A DNA stretch of 64,000 nucleotides from Caldalkalibacillus uzonensis. GTDB taxonomy: Bacteria; Bacillota; Bacilli; Caldalkalibacillales; Caldalkalibacillaceae. The notes under the pieces are model-generated. The model was given only the letters and a program-made list of their open reading frames with translations, was not told the DNA's origin and made no database searches. Below are positions 3,798 to 6,112 of this stretch, in pieces; the stretch's first letter is position 1, and the number at the start of each line of letters is the position of its first letter. The stretch covers positions 1-64,000 of the forward strand of contig NZ_JAUSUQ010000013.1 in NCBI RefSeq assembly GCF_030814135.1. Reading direction: 5' to 3'. The position numbers and the translations under genes are program-made.

Positions 3798-4774
3798 TTA
3801 TGCTGATGCCTGATGGTTTCTCTCACTTACCTCTTGGGAACTTTCTACCAAACGCTGAAAGACTTCAGTCCAGGAATGTTGGAGTGCTAACAGCCGAGAA
3901 TTGCGTCCCAGTTGAAGGCGAAGCCCATGTTCGGTTACCAACTTAAGCAGCGCATGTCTGAAAGCACGGACATCACGGGGCGGACATAGGTAACCGTTCT
4001 GCCCTTCTTGAACTAAGTGCTTCACCCCTCCCCCATTGGCCCCGATAACCGGTAATCCTGATGCCATCGCCTCCAAAACGACATTGCCAAAGGTTTCGGT
4101 CGGAGAAGGGAATAAAAACAGATCGCTCGACGCATATAGTTGAGCCAATTCCCTTCCTTGTTTGAAGCCGGCCAGGGTGATGTGTGGGGAATTAACCTGA
4201 CATAAATCGGAATAAAGCGGCCCATCTCCCACGATGATCAGTTGAGTTTGCTTTATAACCGGTTTCGGAAGGCTAAGAAAACTGTGAATGGCGGTCGGCA
4301 CATCTTTTTCCGGAGCAAGCCGTCCAACATATAAAGCCAGAATACGTTTGCCTTGGCCATATTGGTGACGGATGTCAGGGCTATAATGAGCGGGAGAAAA
4401 GAAATAATGGTCGACACCCCGCGGCCATATTTCCAGATTGTTGTGGACTCTGTGGTGAAGTAACTTTTCTTTTGTGCTTTGCGAGGGAACATATACTTTT
4501 TTGGCTGGCCGGTGAAACCAGCGCATGTAATGCCAAATCCACTTTTCCATAAAGGACAGGTTATAATAACGCAGATACTCATCAAAATGGGTGTGATAGG
4601 AGGCAACCAGAGGGATCCCATGTTTGCGGGCATATTGCACACCAAATAATCCGACATTGAAAGGAGTTGCCACGTGAATTAAGGAGGTTCCAAATAAGCG
4701 GTTAACTGTCCCAAGGTTCTGGCCACACCATTGATTTCAGGCGCATAAGTGTCGGAAAAAATGGCCACTCTCAT
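3798..4774 (-). pseudogene. GT4-family glycosyltransferase with internal deletion and frameshift
   Basis: The natural start is the ATG at 4772-4774, giving the classic GT4 N-terminus MRVAIFSDTYAPEINGVART, but this frame hits a stop at 4679-4681 after about 31 codons. A second frame then resumes at L-I-H-V-A-T-P-F-N and runs 290 residues with the expected features: SYHTHFDEYL, the donor-site GRLAPEKD, SPTETFGNVVLEAMASG. Intact relatives carry roughly 60 more residues between these parts. The gene therefore looks internally deleted and frameshifted. Relatives transfer sugars to diacylglycerol or other lipids. PhoP-type boxes lie upstream, and it is divergent from a PAP2 phosphatase. A translated short form from a GTG at 4673 is possible but would lack the N-terminal fold. 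Confidence 0.75.
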
Positions 4775-4820
4775 ACAACTTCCCCCTTCAACATAACATA
4801 ACTCTGTTTTAATCCAACTG

Positions 4821-4859
4821 TATCATAACAGTGTTAATTAACCGTTAAGATGAGGTTAA
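4821..4859 (-). promoter_or_regulatory. PhoP-type boxes and promoter facing the glycosyltransferase
   Basis: Read on the minus strand: TTAACC (4854-4859), TTAACG (4843-4848) and TTAACA (4832-4837), each separated by five bases, an exact 11-bp phase. A -10-like TATGAT (4822-4827) follows. The consensus for B. subtilis PhoP binding is TT(A/T/C)ACA-like hexamers at 11-bp steps. Binding itself is inference. Confidence 0.65.
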
Positions 4860-4876
4860 AAAATGAGGCTTTAGTT

Positions 4877-4919
4877 TTAACATGAGCTTAAAACTGGCTT
4901 AACAAAGTTTAGATAAAAT
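4877..4919 (+). promoter_or_regulatory. PhoP-type boxes and promoter facing the PAP2 gene
   Basis: Read on the plus strand: TTAACA (4877-4882), TTAAAA (4888-4893), TTAACA (4899-4904), then a weaker TAGATA (4910-4915), all in 11-bp phase. A -10-like TAAAAT lies at 4914-4919. There is no good -35, as is typical for PhoP-activated promoters. It mirrors the boxes on the other strand. Confidence 0.65.
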
Positions 4920-4949: not shown

Positions 4950-5480
4950 ATGGACCGCATGAAGATGTGGTTGGCTGATCAGGATGTGAAATGGTTTGGC
5001 TTTGTTAATCAGCGGCTTCATTGTCAACTCTTGGATATTTTACTTCCTCGTATAACCCACTTGGGGGGTGCTACTGCAACCCTGACCGGGCTGGGACTTA
5101 CCATGATATTATGCTCTGACCCTATCCGCCTGTGGGCGGTTCAAGCCCTTATCGCACTAATTATCAGTCATGTTGCCGTCCAAGTGATCAAGAAAATTGT
5201 TCCCCGGCAACGCCCCTATCTGATATTGCCTGGCACCCGCCTTTGTCCTCATCCGCTCAAGGATTACTCCTTTCCTTCCGGCCACTTCACCGCCAGCTTT
5301 TCCATCGCCAGTGTCTTTGCCCTGCATTCCATTGTACTTGCTTTTCTGGTTGTTCCCCTCGCTGTGGCCATTGCCTTCTCTCGCATGTATTTGGGACTTC
5401 ATTATCCAACGGATTGCCTCGCCGGCGCCGTGCTGGGCACGGTGACAGCCTGCTGTGTCGTGTGGATATCCGGCTTCTAA
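4950..5480 (+). CDS. PAP2-superfamily membrane phosphatase
   Basis: A 176-residue membrane protein with all three PAP2 motifs: K82-x5-R-P (KKIVPRQRP), P-S-G-H at 109-112, and S-R-x5-H-x3-D at 144-155, whose two histidines form the phosphohistidine catalytic pair. Several hydrophobic helices surround them. Family members dephosphorylate undecaprenyl pyrophosphate, phosphatidic acid or phosphatidylglycerol phosphate on the outer face of the membrane; the substrate cannot be read from sequence. GGAGG precedes the ATG. It is divergent from a glycosyltransferase and has phased PhoP-type boxes upstream, so phosphate-starvation induction is likely. A role in lipid remodelling or phosphate release is inferred. 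Confidence 0.82.
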   Translation: MDRMKMWLADQDVKWFGFVNQRLHCQLLDILLPRITHLGGATATLTGLGLTMILCSDPIRLWAVQALIALIISHVAVQVIKKIVPRQRPYLILPGTRLCPHPLKDYSFPSGHFTASFSIASVFALHSIVLAFLVVPLAVAIAFSRMYLGLHYPTDCLAGAVLGTVTACCVVWISGF

Positions 5481-5623: not shown

Positions 5624-6070
5624 TTAATGGTTGCCGCAGCTGCCGCAACCACCACTGCATCCCCCGCCGCCGCATCCCAGCTGGTCGAAGAAAGGATTGC
5701 CGGTGGGGACCTTAATTGTATCGGAAACCGCATAAGCAATTTTCTCACTGATTTCAATCAAAATCGCTTCAAGTTTTCGTTCCGCCTTCTTAAAGTTGGC
5801 CACACTTTCATTTAAGTCCAGCTCACGCTTTAATTGGCGCATTTCCTTTTTGATGCGGTCATAATCTGGATGAAAGCGCCCAAAACGCTCCACCTCTTCA
5901 TATTGTTCCTTCTTCTGAACAAAACGCTTAATTAATTTTTGCGCTTCCTCATCTTGTTGCAAGCGTTGCTTGCAGATGCGGTAATGCTTCACTTCTTCGG
6001 AGCGGAGAATCAGTTGAGTCAGACGGTCAGTCTCCTCAAGGATTTCCGCCAAGTCAAGTGAGGCTATCAT
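5624..6070 (-). CDS. ylbF: YlbF/RicF, subunit of the RicA-RicF-RicT (Y-) complex
   Basis: The ATG at 6070, 11 bases after GGAGG, gives 148 residues, close to B. subtilis YlbF (149). The upstream ATG at 6091 has no ribosome site. The helical body has E-E-V-E-R-F-G-R-F-H-P-D-Y and R-E-L-D-L-N-E-S-V-A-N-F, near identical to RicF. The tail KVPTGNPFFDQLG is followed by a Cys-Gly cluster with at least four cysteines. In B. subtilis, RicF, RicA and RicT form a complex that binds 4Fe-4S clusters, assists RNase Y-dependent mRNA maturation and promotes competence, biofilm formation and sporulation. The cysteine tail fits cluster binding. Confidence 0.9.
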   Translation of the reverse strand: MIASLDLAEILEETDRLTQLILRSEEVKHYRICKQRLQQDEEAQKLIKRFVQKKEQYEEVERFGRFHPDYDRIKKEMRQLKRELDLNESVANFKKAERKLEAILIEISEKIAYAVSDTIKVPTGNPFFDQLGCGGGGCSGGCGSCGNH

Positions 6071-6112
6071 GAGGATCAACACCTCCGTCATACTATTGTA
6101 ACACGTTTTGAT

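Follow-up and report, generated by a model that had tools for sequence, protein, structure and literature searches.

The window analysed here is a 64-kb stretch of DNA from Caldalkalibacillus uzonensis. It contains a membrane phosphatase of the PAP2 superfamily and, transcribed away from it, a glycosyltransferase gene of the GT4 type that is split in two. The region between the genes holds two outward-facing arrays of PhoP-type boxes, each followed by a −10 element (coordinates are those of the window):

3798..4673, minus strand: remainder of the GT4 frame, 291 aa from a GTG (PF00534, 1.9e-33), free of stops and missing most of the N-terminal domain
4679..4774, minus strand: 5′ fragment of the GT4 gene, MRVAIFSDTYAPEINGVARTLGQLTAYLEPP, with its ATG start at 4774-4772 and 31 codons followed by a stop
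4817..4822, minus strand (read 4822-4817): −10 element TACAGT of the GT4 promoter, 9 bp past the last box
4832..4859, minus strand: PhoP-type box array towards GT4, TTAACC 4859-4854, TTAACG 4848-4843 and TTAACA 4837-4832, in 11-bp steps
4877..4904, plus strand: PhoP-type box array towards PAP2, TTAACA 4877-4882, TTAAAA 4888-4893 and TTAACA 4899-4904, in 11-bp steps
4914..4919, plus strand: −10 element TAAAAT of the PAP2 promoter, 9 bp past the last box (offset +15 from the start of that box)
4950..5480, plus strand: PAP2-superfamily membrane phosphatase, 176 aa (PF01569, 1.6e-20)

Nearby, positions 5624-6091 of the minus strand encode a YlbF/YmcA-family protein with a Cys/Gly-rich tail, CGGGGCSGGCGSCGNH, that is weakly similar to the halo-CC-star protein HcsL.

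The phosphatase and the disrupted glycosyltransferase

The PAP2 gene is intact. All three catalytic motifs of the superfamily (KX6RP, PSGH and SRX5HX3D) are present, as KKIVPRQRP, PSGH and SRMYLGLHYPTD, on a helical PAP2 fold whose predicted model has a pLDDT of 94.7 and whose closest solved folds are LpxE and PgpB, the PAP2-type phosphatidylglycerophosphate phosphatase of B. subtilis. Undecaprenyl-diphosphatase models are the top matches to the sequence, below their cut-off and about as good as any other model.

The initial annotation had described the pair as a GT4 transferase and a lipid-type phosphatase. This description holds for the phosphatase and for the family of the transferase, but it overlooked that the transferase gene is broken: compared with relatives, the gene lacks about 166 bp and carries a frameshift, and its N-terminal domain is short of about 57 residues. 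The complete two-domain GT-B fold, which relatives encode in a single frame, is not encoded by the window gene. The remaining 291 codons retain the E-x7-E motif (ETFGNVVLE) and all residues that are invariant in relatives and, because these conserved residues are kept, we propose that the loss is either recent or an assembly error. We place an assembly error, which would leave the gene intact in the organism and is compatible with our preferred explanation below, slightly short of an even chance. It would account for the stop-free, conserved remainder beside an intact promoter and an intact PAP2 gene in a draft genome of 53 contigs, whereas the missing segment was not found elsewhere in the assembly and the terminal branch of the window GT4 is long in the tree (0.78 versus a median of 0.43). 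A genome of the same genus (G001) lacks the GT4/PAP2 pair, so it provides no copy for dating the disruption. Since GT4 is disrupted in the assembly, only PAP2 is intact, and the pathway discussed below may not run in this organism.

Two back-to-back promoters of fixed geometry

Arrays were scored with a box model based on the B. subtilis consensus, with weights not fitted to these data. Among three-box arrays on both strands of the window, the two intergenic arrays rank first and second (scores 25.1 and 20.7), and the highest-scoring array outside the PAP2/GT4 intergenic region reaches 15.1. Markov-1 shuffles of the intergenic region attain either score about once per 1000. Coordinates, shuffles and ranking together bear out the earlier description of three hexamers per strand, all separated by exact 11-bp steps. 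Its further claim that each array leads to a −10-like hexamer is likewise borne out by TAAAAT and TACAGT, with a 9-bp spacer in both cases. For the GT4 promoter, TATGAT at 4827-4822, which overlaps TACAGT, was also considered as the −10 element and is less likely, as the 9-bp spacer seen in relatives and in the Pho promoters of the genome itself favours TACAGT. A weaker array lies on the plus strand of the window at 263-290 (score 15.1, with a 10-bp first step), upstream of bacterial PH-domain genes; a −10 element was looked for at +15 and is absent there.

Both intergenic promoters have the form of PhoP-activated promoters of B. subtilis, in which at least two TT(A/T)ACA-like direct repeats at steps of about 11 bp stand directly upstream of the −10 element at a fixed distance. 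There are three repeats per direction here, and the 9-bp spacer matches that of relatives. Unlike the B. subtilis promoters, the window has its two arrays back to back with a constant separation between them.

The initial annotation had suggested that related genomes be searched for the same boxes, and the arrangement is kept there. Our sample comprised 80 named loci with 108 upstream regions, which are not independent of each other, and yielded 67 distinct arrays upstream of genes of this family. When repeat steps of 7-16 bp were compared across the 108 regions, only 11 bp was clearly enriched, with mean best scores of 9.8, 14.3 and 14.2 versus 3-6, and up to 9.5, at other steps. A TANNNT hexamer follows at +15 from the start of the last box, corresponding to the 9-bp spacer, in 37 of the 67 arrays and at +26, one box further, in another 21, with counts of 0-5 at other offsets. 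An array combined with a −10 element occurs in 52 of the 108 regions, against approximately 0.25 expected from shuffles. In the same relatives, promoters of neighbouring genes including infC, trmB, metK, pckA, a GT28 and a UDP-glucose dehydrogenase had no excess of 11-bp steps.

The two promoters are also constrained relative to each other. Their −10 elements are 92 bp apart in the window and 90-94 bp apart in nine, window included, of the 13 distinct regions between divergent GT4 and PAP2 genes in which both sides had an array that could be scored; uniform placement predicts 0.3, although the range was set after the data had been seen and the species are related, so that a probability computed from these counts is not to be taken literally. 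In two further divergent regions the separation is 82-83 bp, which is one helical turn less. The near-constant distance persists despite intergenic lengths that vary from 158 to 498 bp, and spans Evansella, Anaerobacillus, Salipaludibacillus and Paenibacillus.

Pho-type sites in the genome and the probable regulator

The genome encodes phoP and phoR in the gene order icd-mdh-phoP-phoR-polA-mutM, which is also their order in B. subtilis. A genome-wide pattern search allowing up to two mismatches returned 46 sites and the reversed control another 46, and individual matches therefore mean little. The best sites, mostly arrays of at least four boxes, precede genes for a Na/Pi cotransporter, PstS, alkaline phosphatase, ugp-type permeases, Wzz and PgsB (names read from the translations, except for pstS, which passed its family cut-off). 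The genome thus carries matching sites before classical Pho genes together with phoPR. The pstS site, which is on the contig of the window at a distance of 84 kb, shares the core TTAAAActggcTTAA with the PAP2-side array.

Several of these sites are of interest in their own right. The strongest Pho-type site examined in the genome has at least four near-perfect TTAACA boxes before the Na/Pi cotransporter-like gene (L139, G000:C2:277398-277447). Arrays before Wzz/CpsD-type genes (L144, G000:C7:188943-188981) and PgsB-type capsule genes (L142, G000:C4:30087-30114) suggest that capsule or polyglutamate could be under phosphate control. A strong four-box array on the minus strand with a −10 element at the right distance (L140, G000:C7:193714-193763) has no obvious protein gene downstream within the stretch read, and possibly serves an RNA or a missed gene.

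Putative PhoP control of both promoters, as the initial annotation had supposed, is well supported by the same-form Pho sites across the genome, the presence of phoPR, and the conservation of boxes, spacing and divergent geometry. Two other origins of the boxes have to be weighed against it. That they are a chance arrangement would draw on the AT-rich composition of the intergenic region, and is scarcely credible given the shuffles, the step test, the reversed-sequence and neighbouring-gene controls, and the fixed 9-bp and 90-94-bp spacings, which refute it. Binding by another response regulator of the same family is the second proposal, as the boxes of WalR (YycF) are also 11 bp apart and the genome has a walR-like locus (L172). 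WalR boxes have the form TGTWAH-N5-TGTWAH with G as the second base, whereas 94% of the 67 arrays have T and 0% have G at the second box position, and arrays of the same form stand before pstS, alkaline phosphatase and ugp genes; we consider such a regulator very improbable.

Gene context and a proposed lipid-remodelling module

A PAP2 homologue adjoins GT4 in about half of the 80 named loci (32 have no adjacent PAP2). The two genes are divergent in Evansella, Anaerobacillus, Halalkalibacter, Salipaludibacillus and Paenibacillus, and form a PAP2-GT4 operon in Alkalihalobacillus, Fictibacillus, Rossellomorea and others. A UDP-glucose dehydrogenase gene is next to or near GT4 in 16 loci, several of them without PAP2, and a GT28 resembling diglucosyl-DAG synthase occurs in 19, directly after PAP2 in Paenibacillus. 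In a distant relative (L009, 414-1226 and 1414-2667, minus strand), a UppP-like undecaprenyl-diphosphatase gene follows GT4 in place of PAP2.

The window GT4 belongs to a strongly supported tree group with copies from Evansella, Halalkalibacter, Caldalkalibacillus and Salipaludibacillus. Its nearest relative whose named neighbour belongs to a known pathway, L010, is probably SqdX, since it adjoins UDP-sulfoquinovose synthase. Searches of solved structures returned the generic GT4 folds BshA, MshA and PimA, which do not fix the substrate.

Our best explanation, which we consider probable as a whole, is that the two arrays between the genes form one PhoP operator, back to back and bidirectional, and that PAP2 and GT4, in their intact form, act in lipid remodelling. 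Under phosphate starvation, phosphorylated PhoP would bind both arrays, whose boxes are phased at 11 bp and face outwards, and, together with the housekeeping RNA polymerase, would activate transcription from both −10 elements, each a fixed 9 bp past its last box. This would co-induce the PAP2 lipid phosphatase and GT4 in the intact, ancestral arrangement. PAP2 could then dephosphorylate phosphatidic acid or phosphatidylglycerol phosphate, yielding diacylglycerol or spare phosphate, and GT4, as a member of the SqdX-like branch, could add glucuronic acid or glucose from a UDP-sugar to diacylglycerol, the sugar perhaps being glucuronic acid where UDP-glucose dehydrogenase is linked. The resulting glycolipid would take the place of phospholipid. 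From the sequence we infer PhoP binding, induction, the PAP2 substrate, the GT4 donor and acceptor, and the lipid swap itself. The swap from phospholipid to glycolipid had been put forward by the initial annotation; gene context in relatives (UDP-glucose dehydrogenase, the diglucosyl-DAG-synthase homologue and sulfoquinovose synthase) argues for it and makes a lipid-remodelling role of the intact module plausible, whereas the broken GT4 of the window counts against it.

An alternative accepts the sites as true PhoP sites and has the pair make a wall or capsule polymer, with PAP2 recycling undecaprenyl pyrophosphate and GT4 using UDP-glucuronate to build a phosphate-free polymer such as teichuronic acid. 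The tua operon for teichuronic acid in B. subtilis is a ready parallel, being Pho-controlled and using UDP-glucuronate and a GT4 (TuaC), but the window GT4 falls outside the TuaC group and its pair has no polymer-export genes beside it. TuaC membership was rejected for these glycosyltransferases because the TuaC model scores 64-84 bits on them, far below the 133-181 bits of lipid-glycosyltransferase models such as GlcN-PG synthase, and because true TuaC, its relatives and other GT4s branch outside their group, in a tree whose deep support is weak. The TuaD-type dehydrogenase by GT4 in 16 loci, the undecaprenyl-diphosphatase models that come first among the sub-threshold PAP2 matches, the UppP-like gene of L009 and the Pho sites before Wzz and PgsB elsewhere in the genome all fit a wall polymer; the diglucosyl-DAG-synthase homologue that adjoins PAP2 in 19 loci does not, and the surroundings of the pair in relatives show no recurrent polymerase or flippase. 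We regard the polymer as unlikely, if by no means negligible, and favour lipid remodelling.

The replacement of phospholipid by glycolipid has already been worked out in Proteobacteria (PlcP-Agt) and cyanobacteria. The PlcP-Agt pair performs phosphate-starvation lipid remodelling in Agrobacterium (Agt) and SAR11 (GTcp) (PMC3972451, PMC8231724), and resembles our system in linking a phosphate-regulated lipid hydrolase or phosphatase gene to a GT4 with UDP-glucuronate or UDP-glucose as likely donors. It differs in that the window and its relatives use PAP2 (PF01569) where PlcP is a metallophosphoesterase, in the Gram-positive host, and in putative control by PhoP instead of PhoB. In GTcp, an aspartate replaces the signature glutamate of E-x7-E (PMC8231724), whereas the motif of the window GT4 keeps the glutamate. 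Synthesis of sulfolipid, a phosphorus-sparing glycolipid, by SqdB-SqdX occurs in Bacillus coahuilensis (PMC4744853). The nearest named relatives of the window GT4 adjoin SqdB, whereas GT4 genes of the window family adjoin PAP2, UDP-glucose dehydrogenase or GT28, and SqdB is neither next to GT4 in the window nor a recurrent neighbour in close relatives. The system would best be classed with Pho-controlled phospholipid-to-glycolipid remodelling, as a variant that is Gram-positive and uses PAP2.

We know of no PAP2-GT4 pair among the Pho genes of B. subtilis. The initial annotation had supposed that no Pho operon of exactly this pair is described, and the literature searched, which covered few subscription journals, contained no description of the pair in a Pho regulon; nor, SqdX of B. 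coahuilensis apart, did the papers searched hold a gene set for phosphate-starvation lipid replacement in Bacillales. We see an even chance that a module for membrane remodelling under PhoP control, so far undescribed, is common to Bacillaceae and Paenibacillaceae. In it, a PAP2 phosphatase in the role of PlcP and an SqdX-like GT4 that makes glucosyl- or glucuronosyl-diacylglycerol would be induced together from a bidirectional operator whose −10 elements keep a fixed distance of 90-94 bp, or one helical turn less. Some lineages would have gained UDP-glucose dehydrogenase or a second DAG glycosyltransferase as well. For finding members of the Pho regulon in these genomes, boxes in 11-bp steps with 9 bp between the last box and the −10 element are a sharp criterion, and the phosphatase and lipid-type glycosyltransferase under a rigid, conserved Pho-type promoter that faces both ways are a concrete candidate, testable in several cultivable, non-pathogenic species.
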